26,774 bases of DNA from a virus, in the IMG/VR virus record IMGVR_UViG_3300044982_000024, positions 1 through 26,774 of that record; one strand, given 5' to 3'. The notes beneath the pieces are model-generated. The model was not told where the DNA came from. It did not search any database and saw nothing but the letters and a program-made list of their open reading frames with translations. Numbering within the stretch: position 1 is the stretch's first letter; every line of letters starts with the position of its first letter. Both the position numbers and the translations under genes were made by a program. This document shows, in pieces, positions 147 through 11,311 of this stretch.

Positions 147-232
147 GCGAAAGTGGCGGAATTGGTAGACGCACTGGATTTAGGTTCCAGCGGGTAACCC
201 CCGTAAGGGTTCGAGTCCCTTCTTTCGCACCA
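147..232 (+). tRNA. tRNA-Leu (anticodon UAG)
   Basis: Full cloverleaf can be read: a perfect 7-bp acceptor stem (GCGAAAG with CTTTCGC), a leucine-type D arm (TGGCGGAATTGGTAGACGC), a CTGGA/TCCAG anticodon stem with loop TTTAGGT (anticodon TAG), a long class-II variable arm, a GGTTCGAGTCC T arm, discriminator A and encoded CCA (230-232). It is host DNA and the presumed integration target: the integrase gene begins its stop 84 bp away and points at it. Confidence 0.97.
206..232 (+). other. Probable attL (tRNA-Leu 3' end)
   Basis: Inferred, not proven. Tyrosine integrases commonly use the 3' half of a tRNA gene as attB and restore it on integration; here the tRNA is intact and int lies directly inside, convergent with it. 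No second copy of the T-arm/acceptor sequence was seen in the rest of the window, so attR should lie beyond base 26774. Exact core boundaries cannot be set from one end. Confidence 0.5.
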
Positions 233-1579: not shown

Positions 1580-1966
1580 CTACTGCTTCATTGCATCCCT
1601 CAGAAGTCGATTCATCGTCCGCGCAAGGTCATTGGCGAACGCTTTGCCTTCGTCGGTCAGCTCGACCACGTTGAGGCGGTTATCGGTTTCGAGGGGAGAG
1701 AGTTTGACTACGGGGCGCAGCGGGGATTGAACCACCCCCTGCCGCTGTCCACGTAGGTATCGGAGCTGGCGAGAGAGAACTGCGGGATCTTCTGATCCCA
1801 CCACCTCACCGATCTCGGGTTGAGTGACTCCGGGGTTTTCGATCACGGCTAGCAATGTCGATAGGTTCGACACTGTGAACTGAGGGTTTGCCTGAAGCTC
1901 CGTCTTGGCTTGCTTCAGAACCACCCGCAGTATGTGTGCCGCTTGCTTGGCGGTCAGGATGGTCAT
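1580..1966 (-). CDS. MarR-like winged-helix regulator
   Basis: A 128-residue protein with a central winged helix-turn-helix: residues about 45-75 read PGVTQPEIGEVVG then AVLSRQLRYL, a MarR-type helix-turn-helix, followed by a wing (RPVVKLSP) and the typical ELTDEGKAFANDLA end. The frame is open upstream to 2032, but the start chosen here is ATG 1966, which has AAGGA at good spacing and lies just downstream of a promoter at 2000-2028. It is likely a DNA-binding repressor acting near int, perhaps on lysogeny or excision; its target is not shown by the sequence. A terminator follows. Confidence 0.8.
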   Translation of the reverse strand: MTILTAKQAAHILRVVLKQAKTELQANPQFTVSNLSTLLAVIENPGVTQPEIGEVVGSEDPAVLSRQLRYLRGQRQGVVQSPLRPVVKLSPLETDNRLNVVELTDEGKAFANDLARTMNRLLRDAMKQ

Positions 1967-1999
1967 CGTAAATCCTTGCGGGCTTATTCCGTTGCCCCC

Positions 2000-2028
2000 A
2001 TGATATGTAAAGCTTGGCGAGTCCACAA
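2000..2028 (-). promoter_or_regulatory. Promoter for the MarR-like gene
   Basis: Minus strand: -35 TTGTGG (2028-2023), 17-bp spacer, -10 TATCAT (2005-2000, five of six consensus bases). The predicted start near 1993 gives a leader of about 27 bases ahead of the AAGGA and ATG at 1966. Confidence 0.55.
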
Positions 2029-2351
2029 GCAATTATGGCGCTCGTCACGCTGCTGCGATACACCCAAAACTGGCCTCTCCTGAAGTCTTCGATGTGGCCT
2101 AAAGATATGCGGGGTAGAAGCATTGCCAGATGTATCACGTGATGAATCATGCCCTGTTCCTGTTCTTTGATTGGTTTTGATTTAGGTATTAAAGACAGCA
2201 TTGAAAACGTTTATCAAGGCTTGAAAAACTCACAGTTCGTCCGTGAGCATGTGCCTGTGGGCGCAAGTTCTTGATAGTGCTTCCGTTACGGAATCGGATG
2301 AACTTGCGTCTAGTTCAGCGTTCAGTCGGTCCCACAGTGACACCGGGTAAC
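2029..2351. other. Non-coding interval with nested inverted repeats
   Basis: No convincing gene. Three inverted repeats are visible: CTCAC/GTGAG (2229-2233 with 2243-2247); an outer pair CGCAAGTTC (2262-2270) and GAACTTGCG (2300-2308); and inside it TTCCG-TTA-CGGAA (2281-2293). The nested pair could form a cruciform or a two-tier RNA hairpin. There is no T-tract, so a terminator is unlikely. An operator or structured RNA is possible. AT-rich DNA at 2165-2230 may hold promoters. Confidence 0.45.
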
Positions 2352-4394: not shown

Positions 4395-4979
4395 TTAGCT
4401 CCAAAACGCGTACACGGTGCCTTCGTAGCTCACGAATCCAACCTCTCCGCCGTACTTCAAGTCGCGTAGGTACGCCTCATAGTTGAAGTAATTCCGCAGG
4501 TTCTCTGGCATCTCACTAAGGACGCCCATCTCGTCCACGAAGTTTTCGACCCACTCCAGTTCGCTATCCGCCGAACCGGCCTGCTTGTCGTTGAAGTCGT
4601 CCTCTGTCGCGTAATGAGTGCCGACATGTTCCACGTAGGCGAGCCATGCTTCCCCGTGGTCACCGATGCGCTCGGCCATCTCGGCCACATCGGATAGGGA
4701 AGGGTTCTCGCCCAAATTCGGGAAGTCGTCGTAATCGTGAATCGACCACTCCTCCGCGCTAGGGATGGTGCCGTACCCATTGCACGGCTTGCACCGTTGG
4801 CTGTCCCGCTCATGCTCGCAATCAGGGCACGACACACGGACGTTGGGATGCTTGGACGTTCGCAACATCGCGTTGATCTCGTCCTGAATCTCGCCCTCGT
4901 CCTTCCCGTCCAGGTCGATCCACACCCCGAGAAGGTGACCGGCGTTGTAGTCGCTGAGGCTCGCAAAGTAAGCGCGCAT
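4395..4979 (-). CDS. ardA: Antirestriction protein ArdA
   Basis: ArdA is an acidic DNA mimic that binds and inhibits type I restriction enzymes, protecting incoming DNA. The 194-residue protein shows the family's hallmark segments: ASLSDYNAGHLLGVWIDL (residues 6-22), FPNLGENPSL (86-95), AERIGDHGEAWLAY (102-115) and PENLRNYFNYEAYLRDL (158-174). It is strongly acidic. Unusual is a four-cysteine element, CPDC (51-54) and CKPC followed by NGYG (63-70), a zinc-ribbon or DnaJ-like knuckle in the N-terminal domain. Start ATG 4979 has GGAGG seven bases upstream. It begins two bases after the stop of the gene at 4982-5272, so the pair forms an operon. Confidence 0.93.
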   Translation of the reverse strand: MRAYFASLSDYNAGHLLGVWIDLDGKDEGEIQDEINAMLRTSKHPNVRVSCPDCEHERDSQRCKPCNGYGTIPSAEEWSIHDYDDFPNLGENPSLSDVAEMAERIGDHGEAWLAYVEHVGTHYATEDDFNDKQAGSADSELEWVENFVDEMGVLSEMPENLRNYFNYEAYLRDLKYGGEVGFVSYEGTVYAFWS

Positions 4980-4981
4980 GG

Positions 4982-5272
4982 TCACGCCTCCGCGCCGTCG
5001 CGTTGCGGCCTCGCCTTGTTTACGTCCGCCAGTTCCCGCTCTAGCGACTCCCTGCGGCGGTCGATGGTGCAAATCAGGGCATCCCGCAGAGCGTCCCGTA
5101 CAGGAGAAAAGAACTCAGCGGGAATTGAAACGCGACCCATGTGCTGCGGCCTACCTTCCGTATAGCTGAGAACGGCTACATCCACGGCGGAAGCGAACAG
5201 CTTCTCTAAGTCGAGCGCGTCGATCTGCTTAAGCGCGATCAGCAGCGTTTCCGTTGTCTCGGTCGGTTTCAT
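4982..5272 (-). CDS. Hypothetical protein cotranscribed with ardA
   Basis: Ninety-six residues, start MKPTETTET at ATG 5272 with GGAGG seven bases upstream; an upstream in-frame start at 5293 lacks such a site and overlaps the terminator. Predicted mostly helical and soluble, with a charged C-terminal helix (DRRRESLERELADVNKARP). Its stop is two bases before the ardA start, so it is probably functionally linked to ardA or simply its leader cistron. No domain recognised. The promoter must lie upstream of or overlap the terminator at 5295-5319. Confidence 0.7.
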   Translation of the reverse strand: MKPTETTETLLIALKQIDALDLEKLFASAVDVAVLSYTEGRPQHMGRVSIPAEFFSPVRDALRDALICTIDRRRESLERELADVNKARPQRDGAEA

Positions 5273-5580: not shown

Positions 5581-5604
5581 AAAAACCCGGCTTGTGGCCG
5601 GGTT
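5581..5604 (-). terminator. Terminator of the small-protein operon
   Basis: Eight-bp stem AACCCGGC / GCCGGGTT with loop TTGTG; five T follow on the minus strand. It sits 26 bp after the stop of the last small gene (5631-5753). Confidence 0.85.
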
Positions 5605-5630
5605 CGGTTAGCGTTCGGTTTGTTCGGTCG

Positions 5631-6078: not shown

Positions 6079-6171
6079 TCAGCCCCCGATCCCCAGGGCG
6101 CGGCACACCACGTTGCCCAGGCCAGCGCCGCATACAACGCAGGCCACCAAAACCATCAGCATTCCGCCCAT
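6079..6171 (-). CDS. 30-residue hydrophobic peptide (or 62-residue form)
   Basis: MGGMLMVLVACVVCGAGLG... is one membrane helix with several Cys. ATG 6171 has GGAG seven bases upstream. The frame also extends to ATG 6267, which has an even stronger site (AGGAG and GGGAG within 14 bases) and would add 32 Arg-rich residues; but that form must be translated through the terminator hairpin at 6195-6219. Both starts may be used: translation from 6267 would melt the hairpin and let RNA polymerase continue into the operon. First gene of the small-protein operon. Confidence 0.45.
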   Translation of the reverse strand: MGGMLMVLVACVVCGAGLGNVVCRALGIGG

Positions 6172-6194
6172 GTCCTTACTCCGTCTTCTGAAAT

Positions 6195-6219
6195 CAAAAG
6201 GGCACCCGTTAGGTGCCCT
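6195..6219 (-). terminator. Terminator/attenuator before the small-protein operon
   Basis: Eight-bp perfect stem AGGGCACC / GGTGCCCT with loop of five, followed on the minus strand by TTTT. It would end leftward transcripts from the promoters at 6631-6658 and 6876-6903, or attenuate entry to the small-gene operon that starts 24 bp later. Confidence 0.75.
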
Positions 6220-6624
6220 GTGTCGTCTTCTGCCGTGTTTTGAAACTGCTTCGCTTGTCCAATGCATAACTCCCTCTCCTCGTTACCGGGTGTCCCCCCG
6301 GCTTGATGTGCTTCCTGCGATGCCCTCTGAGACTCCAAAGGACATCGAGGGAAGCACTGCGCTAATACTGGCATCCGTAAGATAATCAAAACGAAGCAAG
6401 TAATAGAGTGCAGTACAACCTCGCAGCGGTATCACCCCGCTGCATGGTTACCGGCTAGAAGGGAACAGAGAGGCCCTACCTCGTCTGCTGAACCCGCATC
6501 GCTCACGCTACGCGGCTCTACACCCTTGCTACCGTACTCGTTTACCAGTGGCGTAACCCACTGCCAGCACCTCCGCTGGCTGTTACCCTTGCGGGAACCG
6601 TTGGGCCGTGGCCCGTGTTACTTG
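6220..6624 (-). ncRNA. Candidate structured RNA, unit 1 (leftward)
   Basis: Predicted transcript from the promoter at 6631-6658 to the terminator at 6195-6219, about 400 nt. Consecutive hairpins, given in + coordinates: GGGC-CGTG-GCCC (6603-6614); GTTACCC/GGGAAC (6582-6598), which on the minus strand has a GCAA tetraloop of GNRA type; GCCAGC/GCTGGC (6563-6580), loop GGAGGT on the minus strand; CAGTGG/CCACTG (6546-6563); GCAGCGG/CCGCTGC (6423-6443); and a 16-pair two-part stem at 6308-6357 in which a C-A mismatch on the + strand becomes a G-U pair on the minus strand. The GNRA loop and the wobble both favour a minus-strand RNA. Small in-frame openings here are not convincing genes, except possibly the frame from 6267. 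Could alternatively be a long 5' leader of the small-protein operon. Confidence 0.5.
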
Positions 6625-6630
6625 CAACCT

Positions 6631-6658
6631 ATACTAGCATCGCATCAATCATTGTCAA
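6631..6658 (-). promoter_or_regulatory. Leftward promoter 1
   Basis: Minus strand TTGACA (6658-6653), 16-bp spacer, extended -10 TGCTAGTAT (TG at 6639-6638, TAGTAT 6636-6631). Perfect -35 plus TGn makes this a strong sigma-70 promoter; start near 6624. Its upstream 18 bp are repeated exactly at promoter 2. Confidence 0.7.
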
Positions 6659-6669
6659 GTCATCAAGCA

Positions 6670-6869
6670 TCAGTGCGAGCGATTGCCGGTAGGCAGCGAG
6701 GCAACTCCTCGCGTTCGCCGGTTGGTTTCGTTGGGGGCGGCGTGGCTAGTCCCTTCGTTCCCTTCCGGCTCCACGTTAACCCTTTGGGCGGCCCGTGGTT
6801 GCCTAGTGGTCCATCATCGCGCTGCCTGGAGACCAGGGAGCCAGTCGGCGGCGGTCCGTGCCGTGACTT
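6670..6869 (-). ncRNA. Candidate structured RNA, unit 2 (leftward)
   Basis: Predicted transcript from the promoter at 6876-6903. Hairpins in + coordinates: CCTGG-AGA-CCAGG (6825-6837); CCACG/CGTGG (6771-6775 with 6794-6798) enclosing CCC-TTT-GGG (6780-6788); GCGAGG/CCTCGC (6696-6712) inside CCGG/CCGG (6686-6721). The 5' end (TTGCAAGT then ACGG) resembles unit 1. No terminator was seen before promoter 1, so this RNA may read into unit 1. Open frames across it on the + strand are low-complexity and have no ribosome sites. Confidence 0.42.
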
Positions 6870-6875
6870 GCAAAC

Positions 6876-6903
6876 AGATTAACATGGCTTTGATGCTTGT
6901 CAA
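6876..6903 (-). promoter_or_regulatory. Leftward promoter 2
   Basis: Minus strand TTGACA (6903-6898), 16-bp spacer, extended -10 TGTTAATCT (TG at 6884-6883, TAATCT 6881-6876). The -35 lies in CTTGACAAG, a palindrome around a central A, and is flanked by TTGATG and CATCAA arms (6890-6895 with 6906-6911), suggesting an operator over the promoter. Confidence 0.65.
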
Positions 6904-6914
6904 GTCATCAAGCA

Positions 6915-7281
6915 ATAATCGGGAGCATCCAGTGGTGGACTGTGGGCATCGTCAGGTGTCCGGCTGGGTTCGGTGCGTGATGGATGAAAACGAAAACTAC
7001 AGATGCGGACAGACACGGACGGAAACAAACGAACGAACAGGGCCGAATGTTGGCCGCGTGCGTCCTTTGGGCGTGCATAGATGCCGCATCGGATATGAGA
7101 ACCGGCGCGGTAGGGCTGGAATCAGTGACTTAGCTTCTCAGGTGCCGCCGTGGGTGCCTTGAGGGCTGGGCGGATGAAGGAATCGGGCGCACGCGTGCGC
7201 GCGTAGGAGGGCCTGCGGGGGTAGGTGCGCGCTTGCTCTCCGTCAGATACCCCAACGGAAATTTGCGGTGAACATTGCGGG
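6915..7281. other. Non-coding control DNA, no gene seen
   Basis: About 370 bp between leftward promoter 2 and the iterons. A 60-codon + frame from 6979 exists but has no ribosome site, and its composition looks non-coding. A 14-bp perfect palindrome of alternating purine-pyrimidine character lies at 7187-7200 (GCGCACGCGTGCGC). Nothing else identifiable. Confidence 0.4.
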
Positions 7282-7314
7282 CCTCAAGGTCACCTCAAGG
7301 TTACCTCATGGATA
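7282..7314 (+). repeat. Three 11-bp iterons (CCTCAAGGTYA)
   Basis: CCTCAAGGTCA (7282), CCTCAAGGTTA (7293) and CCTCATGGATA (7304) follow without gaps at 11-bp period, close to one helical turn, so a bound protein would sit on one face. The period is not a multiple of three, arguing against coding. They end 24 bp upstream of a TATAAG -10 (7339-7344) that has no good -35: the position expected for activator sites. Confidence 0.7.
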
Positions 7315-7338
7315 CCTTCGTTACGCCAGTGGCAGTTG

Positions 7339-7372
7339 TATAAGTTGACGAGACTCTTGACAAGAGCGTCAA
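7339..7372 (+). promoter_or_regulatory. Rightward promoter and nested palindromic operator
   Basis: -10 TATAAG at 7339-7344 (five of six), start expected near 7351. Immediately after it: CTCTTG-A-CAAGAG (7354-7366), flanked by TTGACG (7345-7350) and CGTCAA (7367-7372), i.e. a 12-bp inverted repeat with a three-base bulge. The core CTTGACAAG is the same palindrome found at leftward promoter 2. It overlaps the first possible ATG (7372) of the regulator, so it could act as a DNA operator or as an RNA hairpin on translation. Confidence 0.55.
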
Positions 7373-7392
7373 TGTGGATCGAAATGGGCATC

Positions 7393-8118
7393 ATGACAGT
7401 CACGTATAAATCCCCAAAAGTCACCTTAGGCACGCCTGACGATGTCGCCTATTGGACGAAAAAGTTGGACATGCCACTGGCTGAGCTTCAGGAAGCCATA
7501 CGGATCGTCGGAGATCACGTATCCGACGTAGCGAGGTTCAAGGAGCGGGGCAGTGTCTCCGTGGTGACCTTCTTATCGCAATGCCGTGAGCGCATCGACT
7601 TCATAGAACATCAGATTGATGAGCTTGAAGAGGAGCGGGAGAAGTTAGTTGAATTGTTGAGTACTTATTCGGAGCTGTACAAAACCAGCAGCAATCCATT
7701 CTTGAGTCCGCCGCCTGCTCATTTGAAGGGGTTTAAAAGCGGAGTAATCGTAGAGCCTGCATTCGCTGTACCCAATCCAGCACCAGACGCGGCACAATTT
7801 GAGCCTGTTAGTCCGCCGGTGCGGAGGGTACCTGATGCGTCTCGTATACCGCCGCCTGCGCCGCTTCGCATAGCACAACCAACGCCGCCGCCTGCTCCTA
7901 TGCAGCATCCGTTGCACCATCCAGTGACTGTGGTACACAAGCTGTTAAAAGATGGAAAGCGCAGGCACATCCGCGAGCTACTGAACTATCTGGAACTTCG
8001 CGGGCTTAAGCTAAATAGCAGTAATCCAGCAGGCCTGCTTAGTTCGCTGCTTAGCAAGGATGACCGCTTCGATGCCAGTCGCAAGGATGGGTGGGGTCTT
8101 AAAGACACTGAGGAATGA
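7393..8118 (+). CDS. DUF3606 / winged-helix regulator-like protein
   Basis: A 241-residue protein of four parts: residues 14-50 resemble DUF3606 (DDVAYWTKKLDMPLAELQEAIRIVG); 64-98 is a coiled coil (ERIDFIEHQIDELEEEREKL); 101-175 is a Pro-rich linker with repeated PPPAP; 178-236 is a winged helix of HARE-like type (HIRELLNYLELRGLKL...PAGLLSSLLSKDDRF...GWGL). This suggests a multimeric DNA-binding protein. Start uncertain: ATG 7372, 7384 and 7393 are in frame; 7393 begins the conserved part but has only a weak ribosome site. It is preceded by iterons and a palindrome and ended by a strong terminator, so it is a single-gene unit facing the two RNA promoters. A lysogeny regulator is a reasonable guess, not shown. 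Confidence 0.75.
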   Translation: MTVTYKSPKVTLGTPDDVAYWTKKLDMPLAELQEAIRIVGDHVSDVARFKERGSVSVVTFLSQCRERIDFIEHQIDELEEEREKLVELLSTYSELYKTSSNPFLSPPPAHLKGFKSGVIVEPAFAVPNPAPDAAQFEPVSPPVRRVPDASRIPPPAPLRIAQPTPPPAPMQHPLHHPVTVVHKLLKDGKRRHIRELLNYLELRGLKLNSSNPAGLLSSLLSKDDRFDASRKDGWGLKDTEE

Positions 8119-9113: not shown

Positions 9114-9650
9114 ATGTGGCCGTTTAAGAAAACCCAGCGCATGTCCGTAGATGAGCGAGCCGGATTGGCCGCGACGTTCTTGCTTGATTCCCTGCACGGG
9201 ATCACAGCTGCAGTGGTGGGCGCGGCCATTGGGGAGGGTTGGGAGGAACAGCAGGACGACGCGTTTATGGTTACCGCGTTTGAGCTGCTCATCTTCCAGC
9301 TTCACTTGGCGGATCGGCTGACCCGCGTGAAAGCTGTGGGGAAGAACGGCGGCGCGGAGTTGATGGATGCCTTGCTGCCCATCGTCAGGGATCATGCACC
9401 GGAATTTATGCGTGCCGATTTTCAAGAGCAGTACAACATTCGGCAGCTTTTTTACGGGCAGTGCAAGGCGTTCACTCCCGCCGAAGGTCAACCGGCTTCA
9501 GGAACTCTATTTTGGGAATTTGCCAAGATAGTTCTTACAGCCACAGAACAGGCACAGGAAATAACGAAGATGCTTGGAATCACCGCGATGTGTGGGGACA
9601 TGCTCCGAGGCATCGACAATTCCTTCGAGCAACTTGGCGTCTACCGCTAG
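9114..9650 (+). CDS. Hypothetical cargo protein at the TerL-endolysin junction
   Basis: A 178-residue protein starting MWPFKKTQRMSVDERAG (ATG 9114, GGGGA seven bases upstream). Mostly helical and soluble; a Gly/Ala-rich segment (ITAAVVGAAIGEGW, about residues 30-43) and a run FELLIFQLHLADRL are the most hydrophobic parts. No recognised domain. It lies opposite to the late genes: divergent from the endolysin (31 bp apart if the ATA start is right) and convergent with terL, the two stops overlapping by four bases. One of three such antisense genes here; likely a moron expressed from its own promoter, which was not clearly found. Confidence 0.72.
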   Translation: MWPFKKTQRMSVDERAGLAATFLLDSLHGITAAVVGAAIGEGWEEQQDDAFMVTAFELLIFQLHLADRLTRVKAVGKNGGAELMDALLPIVRDHAPEFMRADFQEQYNIRQLFYGQCKAFTPAEGQPASGTLFWEFAKIVLTATEQAQEITKMLGITAMCGDMLRGIDNSFEQLGVYR

Positions 9651-11311
9651 TAATTGTCGTAGAAGTTCAGCCGAGGACTTGAGTACCCCAGGACTGCTTC
9701 CTCGAACTTGCGGTACTCCTCCTCCATTAGTTCCTCCATGCGTCGATCTTCCTCGCGCGTGACATCTCGACTGAGCCATTCGGTCCAGTAGCGGATTGCC
9801 ATTGCGAGCGCGTCCAGGCGGTCATCGTGTCGTAGCGATCCTCGATCACGTGTAATGCGCGTGAGCTGGTGAAACAACTGGAACCTCGGTTCGTCCTTCT
9901 GATCGGAACGAAGTAACGCAGCGTCCACGACAAGGCGGTGCTGATTCAACACAGGCTCCAGGGTATCGATGATCCGACGTTCCTTCTGGCCGGTGCTGCG
10001 AACTTCCTCGACGGTGCAGGGATAGATACGGCGAAGCACAGGCTCCAACAACGTGTTGAACATGCCGTCACCGAAGTTGGATTCGACGAGGATCGTCTTG
10101 ACCTTCTCGGCACGTGCAATGTGTGCGATGGTTTCCAGTGACGTCTCGGAGTACCCGCCAGGGATTCCACCGGCACGACGTAGGTACACCATGCCGCGCA
10201 ACATCTTCGTCACTGTGTAACCAGTCTCGTCACCACCTCGGCCCGAAGGGTCGATAGTCATGAGAGCGCCAGTGAACTCCTCCATGTCCTTTGAGACGTA
10301 CATAGGACGATGCAGGCGGTCGCCGGTGAATCCGACAGCGGGTATGTCGTTGACAACTTGGTCGGGCGCCGAGGCCCACACGATGCGAATGGGCGCTACT
10401 TCACGATCAATGTCGAACACGATGAGGTCAGAGAGCTTGAGCGGGTAACGCTCGCTGTCCGACAACGTAGTGTCGAGCATGAACTGAAGCATGAAGCCTG
10501 AGCGTCCATAAGACGCCTCACGTTCCAGCAAATCTTCCTCATGGAATCGAGTGGGTTCCACAGGTGACCACGGGAGACCGCGCTTCTCCTCGAATGCTTC
10601 CGCAATGAAAGGAGCTAGGCGACCAGCGTATTGCTGATAGTGCTTCTGATCTTTCGGATACCGTGCAGGCCACACACGGATTTCATAGCCGCGCTCAGGG
10701 AGTCGGTTGTAGATGGACTCCTCAGTCTGCGGCGTGCCTAGGTAGATGATCTCGGACGTCGGCAGTGGCTTAAGGATCGCGTCAAACTCTTTGATTAGTT
10801 CCGACAGCTTCTCGCGCTGTGCCACGGTGGCAGAGTTCTTCACCACCTCAACGTCGTCCGCAATGATCGTGTCAGCACGGGAGCCGGTGAGCTGACCGGT
10901 GATACCAACGGACTTCACTGAAGGCGATTGGTCGGGCAGGGCAGGGCCAACATCGAATGCGAGGTTGGAGTCACGCTGGTCACCACGGGGTTTCAAGTGT
11001 GCCAGCTCGGGAACCGTCTCGATCAATCGCTTGACGAAGATGGAGAACGCATCCGCGCGATCCTTCGACGCAGATACGACGAGAATCTTGTGCTGTGGGT
11101 TCTTCCACAGAAGCCAGCAGACATACGCGGCAGTAAGCCACGACTTACCGATACCGCGGAAAGCTTCGATCACCCGGCGACGCGGGCCGTGTTGCAGGTA
11201 CGAACCGATGTCGTACTGAACGGGCGTAGGGGCGGGGAGATTGAGGTGCTTCCATATTTGGAAGACGAAGTTTCGGAAGTCGAGGAAGGGATGTTGCTGG
11301 TCAGGAGGCAA
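9647..11311 (-). CDS. Terminase large subunit, T7 gp19-like
   Basis: The DNA-packaging motor: an ATPase that drives DNA into the prohead and a nuclease that cuts concatemers. 554 residues (T7 gp19: 586). Walker A FRGIGKS (51-57) is the same as in T7; Walker B TIIADD (148-153); coupling motif YLGTPQTEES (190-199); RNase H-like nuclease acids at Asp354 (TIDPSGRGGDETGY), about Glu410 (VESNFGDG) and Asp497/Asp500 (HDDRLDALA). The start is TTG 11311, directly after an in-frame TGA, and no ATG is available before the conserved region; no clear Shine-Dalgarno (AAGG is 12 bases away). An antisense gene separates it from its small subunit. Confidence 0.96.
   Translation of the reverse strand: MPPDQQHPFLDFRNFVFQIWKHLNLPAPTPVQYDIGSYLQHGPRRRVIEAFRGIGKSWLTAAYVCWLLWKNPQHKILVVSASKDRADAFSIFVKRLIETVPELAHLKPRGDQRDSNLAFDVGPALPDQSPSVKSVGITGQLTGSRADTIIADDVEVVKNSATVAQREKLSELIKEFDAILKPLPTSEIIYLGTPQTEESIYNRLPERGYEIRVWPARYPKDQKHYQQYAGRLAPFIAEAFEEKRGLPWSPVEPTRFHEEDLLEREASYGRSGFMLQFMLDTTLSDSERYPLKLSDLIVFDIDREVAPIRIVWASAPDQVVNDIPAVGFTGDRLHRPMYVSKDMEEFTGALMTIDPSGRGGDETGYTVTKMLRGMVYLRRAGGIPGGYSETSLETIAHIARAEKVKTILVESNFGDGMFNTLLEPVLRRIYPCTVEEVRSTGQKERRIIDTLEPVLNQHRLVVDAALLRSDQKDEPRFQLFHQLTRITRDRGSLRHDDRLDALAMAIRYWTEWLSRDVTREEDRRMEELMEEEYRKFEEAVLGYSSPRLNFYDNY

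Follow-up and report, generated by a model that had tools for sequence, protein, structure and literature searches.

In textbooks, T7-like phages stand for an early host takeover that is simple and relies on proteins alone. Phage T7 carries the tandem host-polymerase promoters A1-A3 at its left end, with the antirestriction gene 0.3 (Ocr) first, and its early messages are processed by RNase III; to our knowledge, no comparable conserved structured RNA has been described between these promoters. The immunity (CI) RNA of P4, a temperate element, is structured, comes from an early promoter and confers immunity by pairing with the leader; ROOL and GOLLD are structured non-coding RNAs of phages and prophages without a known role. 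The put elements of the temperate phage HK022, putL and putR, are nascent structured RNAs lying just after the early promoters, one each, and such an RNA alone suffices for antitermination (PMC9378689); it is ~70 nt long, consists of two stem-loops, is similar in putL and putR, and suppresses termination via the zinc-binding domain of the RNAP beta' subunit. For LUZ100, a T7-like Pseudomonas phage with temperate features, the starts at the host promoters have been mapped experimentally (PMC10134795).

The window analysed here is the whole of a 26.8-kb virus record (26,774 nucleotides), near-identical to a portion of the 43.5-kb viral contig L002. Its TerL (9647-11311), tail, internal-virion and lysis genes all point leftward, and past these late genes follow a non-coding stretch, small ORFs, an ArdA-type gene, a MarR-like regulator, an integrase and a tRNA (Table 1). 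The gene set is LUZ100-like: TerL, the MarR-like gene and the integrase beside the tRNA are present in the window, and a single-subunit T7-type RNAP (PF00940) was found in all eight related records tested. The LUZ100 map shows an identical order, namely terminal repeat, two tandem host promoters, small genes, MarR, tRNA-Leu, integrase and RNAP, and the LUZ100 promoters are ~200 bp apart with an identical stretch in common. We identify the region as that of the early promoters at the left genome end of a temperate T7-like phage; the host promoters of T7 sit at the corresponding location. As in T7, left-end tandem host promoters would drive an antirestriction gene, although T7 has neither an integrase nor a MarR gene. 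Prophage relatives occur in Dyella silvatica and in three Rhodanobacter strains, and the region has no DNA similarity to sequenced phages. Rhodanobacter or Dyella strains with the RNA called RNA2 below include A1T4, MP7CTX1, ANJX3 and RBB189.

Table 1. Features of the early region and its surroundings, in window coordinates.
Feature	Position	Strand	Remarks
Conserved block AAATTTCCGTTGGGGTATC	7246..7276	-	relatives up to 93% identical across 31 bp, surroundings diverged
Conserved block CATCTGTAGTTTTCG	6991..7015	-	several relatives 96% identical across 25 bp; lies ~90 bp upstream of P2
Phage-specific repeat, copy 1 TGCTTGATGACTTGACAA	6897..6914	-	overlaps P2 -35; candidate operator
Promoter P2	6876..6903	-	TTGACA 6903-6898, 16 bp, TAATCT 6881-6876, extended -10 (TGn)
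RNA2, structured RNA	6678..6867	-	covariation; model R1; no Rfam match
Phage-specific repeat, copy 2 TGCTTGATGACTTGACAA	6652..6669	-	overlaps P1 -35; candidate operator
Promoter P1	6631..6658	-	TTGACA 6658-6653, 16 bp, TAGTAT 6636-6631, extended -10 (TGn)
RNA1, chain of covarying hairpins	6268..6624	-	start estimated
Last RNA1 hairpin	6308..6357	-	inverted repeat; similar one in both RNA1 types; covaries in A5 and A4
Small ORF, 62 aa, KHGRRR motif	6079..6267	-	good ribosome-binding site
Terminator-like hairpin	6199..6219	-	-16 kcal/mol; inside the small ORF
Second terminator-like site, early operon	5583..5605	-	before ardA
ArdA-type antirestriction gene, early operon	4395..5072	-	PF07275 6e-32, phrog_2059; longest frame
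MarR-like regulator	1580..2032	-	phrog_9665; co-variation with promoter repeats; next to integrase
tRNA	147-229		only Rfam match in window

The initial annotation had described two leftward promoters of like design (TTGACA, 16 bp, TGn before the -10 box) with an exact 18-bp repeat common to both. The sequence bears out both points, and the observation as a whole is confirmed. P2 and P1 are ~245 bp apart and occupy the same place with the same spacing in about 20 distinct relatives. A pair of the form TTGAC(A/G)-16-TAnnnT, 240-250 bp apart, is present in relatives with 70-100% TerL identity, and in the L032-L042 group the related pair has spacers of 17-18 bp and a distance of 273-276 bp; the promoter pairs are kept across relatives despite diverged flanking DNA. 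With transcript starts estimated from the -10 boxes in this clade, the two RNAs described below, RNA2 and RNA1, begin ~10-15 nt from the -10 boxes of P2 and P1, respectively.

RNA2, a structured RNA of ~190 nt between P2 and P1, is alignable end to end in 18-19 distinct phages. Its structure comprises 39 pairs in 10 helices with 96% of cells paired; double (compensatory) changes are found in 21 of the 39 pairs and the covariation score is 0.383 versus 0.137 in shuffles, the structure having been derived in part from the same alignment that was used to score it. When the partners were slid by 1-3 columns, pairing went down to 32-42%. Compensatory changes are present in each of the helices 6841-6835/6827-6821, 6798-6794/6775-6771, 6769-6766/6720-6717 and 6712-6708/6700-6696, and also in the long-range closing helix (6820-6815 with 6684-6679), of which one of the six pairs is broken in the window. 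The alignment contains 25 invariant unpaired columns, and in four phages one internal module is swapped for a different sequence with the potential for a comparable stem and a GNRA loop. All six frames have stops in most relatives, with no conserved reading frame. The folding energy by itself is unremarkable (z about -1.3 to -1.5), so that at z -1.3 this RNA would be missed by folding energy alone.

Searches with model R1 returned one RNA2 copy per phage, always at the same position, in 23 sources at E < 1e-46, plus two truncated ones. Among 234 host-family genomes the strong matches were confined to four prophages, with three weak ones near E 5e-4, and among 399 genomes of the host order matches were seen only in three prophages; two RNA2 sequence patterns scanned over the whole of IMG/VR returned only contigs of this clade. 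Rfam 15, at gathering and relaxed thresholds, gave no match up to E 5 for 6150-7400. RNA2 is a real structured RNA and a conserved family not previously described, found only in this phage clade and in a single copy per phage. It resembles ROOL and GOLLD as a structured non-coding RNA of phages and prophages without a known role, but it is smaller, tied to early promoters and lacks an Rfam match even at the relaxed threshold.

RNA1 follows P1, is ~350 nt long and has no extended sequence similarity to RNA2. This unit folds better than 100 of 100 shuffles (z -5.3), and in the subgroup of the window (four phages) double changes occur in 26 of 73 pairs with 93% of cells paired, against 36-44% when the partners are slid. 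In other subgroups RNA1 is swapped for other architectures, which end in a similar hairpin. The chain of hairpins is real RNA structure, yet a replaceable module. The hairpins initially noted after each promoter therefore hold for unit 1 by both energy and covariation, and for unit 2 by covariation but not by energy alone. The covariance test proposed at that time strongly supports structured RNAs of the minus strand (21/39 pairs for RNA2, 26/73 for RNA1), and it is the stems, not a reading frame, that are kept through RNA2.

The more distant L032-L042/L038 phages carry a different RNA of ~240 nt in the promoter interval. Double changes are found in 15 of its 64 pairs, and 98% of cells are paired, compared with 35-44% in slid controls. 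Model R1 does not recognise this RNA and has no match in the phages of the L032-L042 group; Rfam gave no match on L033. Some short motifs (GGGAACC, CUAG) are alike by eye between RNA2 and the RNA of the L032 group, a resemblance that is not taken as homology. At least two dissimilar covarying RNAs occupy the slot between the tandem early promoters.

Downstream of RNA1 the initial picture of a 1.1-kb gene-free region, in which unit 1 ends at a good terminator, has to be modified. The window does have a hairpin with a T-run at this point (6219-6199), but it is located inside a conserved small ORF with counterparts in every phage checked, and among the relatives checked the hairpin is often kept while the T-run is usually absent. 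Since the terminator falls within this ORF, the actual non-coding stretch is shortened to ~7225-6268; it also contains two conserved upstream blocks. An ORF with an RRR motif (e.g. KHGRRR, WKYRRRP, FKGRRR) comes after RNA1 in 18 of 18 phages checked. Synonymous changes surround the motif and AGAAGA itself is nearly invariant, so an extra constraint at the nucleotide level is possible there. The last 30 codons of the 62-aa ORF (6171-6079, minus strand) are also readable as a separate small hydrophobic protein, MGGMLMVLVACVVCGAGLGNVVCRALGIGG, which is conserved, with related versions in L004, L005, L007, L010 and L011. In L017, L022, L026 and L086 the ORF is extended to a 90-aa protein, MDSETRFKGRRRQRH..., whose arginine-rich start right after a structured leader gives a layout that seems reminiscent of lambda N proteins.

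Both terminator-like sites of Table 1 lie between P1 and ardA. Four such sites were counted versus 2.1 expected by chance, an excess that lends weak support to the put-like reading given below, and none was detected on the minus strand of the window between RNA2 and RNA1. RNA1 runs into the small ORFs and then ArdA on the same strand, with the true start of ardA probably near 4981; this arrangement makes the earlier suggestion of a leader for the small-protein operon plausible as a putative function. A gene for an SRAP-domain protein (SOS-response-associated peptidase, PF02586; 2896-3870, plus strand) lies between ardA and the MarR-like gene, oriented opposite to the early operon. On the upstream side, the block at 7246-7276 is a candidate for the end of a terminal repeat or a packaging site, because the terminal repeat of LUZ100 is found just upstream of its tandem promoters, and the block at 6991-7015 is a candidate for the other end, the repeat being placed from these two blocks and the LUZ100 map. 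A plus-strand ORF with a weak DUF3606 match (7225-8118) has the lysis genes on one side and the early promoters on the other, and L085 has a different gene at this position.

Allowing 3 mismatches, the 18-bp repeat TGCTTGATGACTTGACAA has no further copy in the window (expected 0.02), and the 43.5-kb near-identical complete relative has no other copy either, including at its RNA polymerase end. The exact repeat was also found once in L082 (2969-2986, minus strand), an otherwise unplaced 6.5-kb viral contig. P2 and P1 are more alike within the same phage (mean local score 19.9) than across phages (10.8), an excess reached in 0 of 10,000 permutations, and repeat similarity between phages tracks the MarR-like protein with r 0.88 (0 of 5,000 permutations), the permutation figures being indicative only as the phages are related to one another. 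The correlation persists with RNA2 identity held constant (partial r 0.87), and in L020, L022 and L026 RNA2 is 84-87% like that of L085, yet the MarR type and the repeats are those of the L002 side. These sequence relationships suggest that the MarR-like protein, or a linked gene such as the integrase module, probably acts at P2 and P1 as a repressor, with the MarR-like protein itself as the best candidate regulator. Since the repeat over both promoters co-varies with the MarR-like gene, P2 and P1 are probably shut in the lysogen, which argues against an immunity RNA of the P4 type.

LUZ100 offers a further comparison at both levels. A perfect palindrome, GCGCATAAGATGCGC, covers the -10 boxes of both mapped host promoters (L161, 386-400 and 587-601), has no further exact copy in the genome and is a candidate operator. 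In the sections of their publication considered here, the LUZ100 authors do not discuss a palindrome at the host promoters, report no structured leader RNA, and place the action of MarR at the RNAP promoter (PMC10134795). The inter-promoter leader of LUZ100 has a fold that is not unusual (z -1.55), and its best R1 match (E 0.014), in which most model positions are skipped, is treated as no evidence of RNA2. The LUZ100 leader does contain a perfect rrn-type boxA, TGCTCTTTAACA (L160, OP329100, 647-658), ~40 nt after the mapped P2 start and with a small hairpin just before it, so that LUZ100 early transcripts may undergo Nus-dependent antitermination; in contrast, no rrn-type boxA was found in the leaders of the window's clade.

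On these grounds we propose that the host RNAP would start the early host-takeover transcripts at the two tandem left-end promoters when repression is absent, and that RNA2 after P2 and RNA1 after P1 would fold at the 5' end of the transcripts, both continuous with the early operon of small ORFs and the antirestriction gene. As the MarR-like protein would repress both promoters in the lysogen, the RNAs would be made on infection or induction. The nascent RNAs may then act in cis by altering the early message or the complex that transcribes it, in a put-like read-through of pauses and terminators. Such cis action is, by analogy, the most likely mechanism, and it fits the position of the RNAs, the presence of one RNA per promoter, the terminator-like sites that precede ardA, and the boxA of LUZ100; the explanation taken whole, with MarR-repressed promoters, is put forward tentatively, at somewhat less than an even chance. 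Like put, RNA2 and RNA1 are structured and lie just after early promoters of a temperate phage, one each; against the analogy, they are ~190 and ~350 nt long, multi-helix and mutually dissimilar, and their leaders have no boxA-like motif. Membership of the put family is not claimed, since size, fold and the likeness of putL to putR do not match.

RNA2 folds as one domain and has many unpaired positions that do not vary, which would suit a trans-acting RNA too and to that extent speaks against the put-like reading. A trans-acting early non-coding RNA (RNA2, perhaps RNA1) encoded beside ardA, for instance one that inhibits a host process or defence or serves as a decoy for it, is, in our judgement, nearly as likely as a cis leader. 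It would account for the compact single-copy fold with its long-range closing helix and the 25 invariant unpaired columns, as well as for the antirestriction gene adjacent in the same early operon and the exchange of RNA1 architecture between phages, as often happens for host-interaction genes; however, RNA2 shows no processing site or terminator of its own, is always tied to the same promoter position, matches no Rfam family and has no known target. That the structures serve mainly to shield the early message, direct its processing or adjust its translation, as 5' stabilisers, RNase III sites or an attenuator and without involvement of RNAP, is unlikely. The long RNA1 hairpins do end close to the first small ORF, and RNase III processing is known for T7-type early messages, but RNA2 is upstream of P1 and hence absent from P1 messages, and many invariant unpaired positions are needless in simple stabilisers.

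Immunity RNAs of the P4 type, which would stop incoming early transcripts prematurely and which the initial annotation had raised, are disfavoured and appear very improbable. A temperate phage with structured RNAs behind its early promoters and a terminator-like site downstream does recall P4, but the co-variation of the promoter repeat with the regulator of the lysogeny module is an operator signature of the protein-repressor type, unlike immunity by RNA pairing. Moreover, no phage-specific pairing between RNA2 and RNA1 was found, their duplex energy being no stronger within than between phages in a coarse, whole-length test of these two RNAs, and the terminator is not conserved, its T-run being lost in most relatives and its hairpin lying in an ORF. 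Still less credit is given to the conserved hairpins acting as DNA, as a signal for packaging, replication or the resolution of concatemers: the probable terminal repeat is next to the region, but RNA2 begins at the predicted start of a consensus promoter in the relatives, and on the minus strand G-U pairs exceed A-C cells (9 v 6, 28 v 6 and 48 v 10, the last two for structures predicted with RNA energies, which favour G-U). An unannotated protein with incidental hairpins is hardly conceivable; the window does contain plus-strand frames of 118 and 159 codons, but coding through RNA2 was rejected, as the alignment contradicts it with stops in all six frames in most relatives and compensatory changes abound. 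The initial interpretation is partly supported: the structured RNAs stand and a leader is plausible, while P4 immunity is disfavoured and the terminator is not conserved.

RNA1 and RNA2 are, on balance, best read as new early leader RNAs, probably acting in cis on the early message or its transcription complex. In the literature searched we found no description of an RNA step in the early takeover by T7-like phages, and such a step is indicated by the conserved covarying RNA with which the early transcripts of their temperate relatives begin and which comes, at one spot, in at least two versions that look unrelated. Furthermore, the co-variation with the MarR-like protein suggests that in temperate T7-like phages the lysogeny regulator has the early host promoters as its target, instead of or besides the site at the RNAP promoter proposed for LUZ100. 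It may be, though it is less likely than not, that RNA2 is the founder of a new class of phage RNAs which take over an early infection step by reprogramming the host RNAP or blocking a host defence, and that exchangeable modules of this kind are general between the tandem early promoters of temperate T7-like phages.
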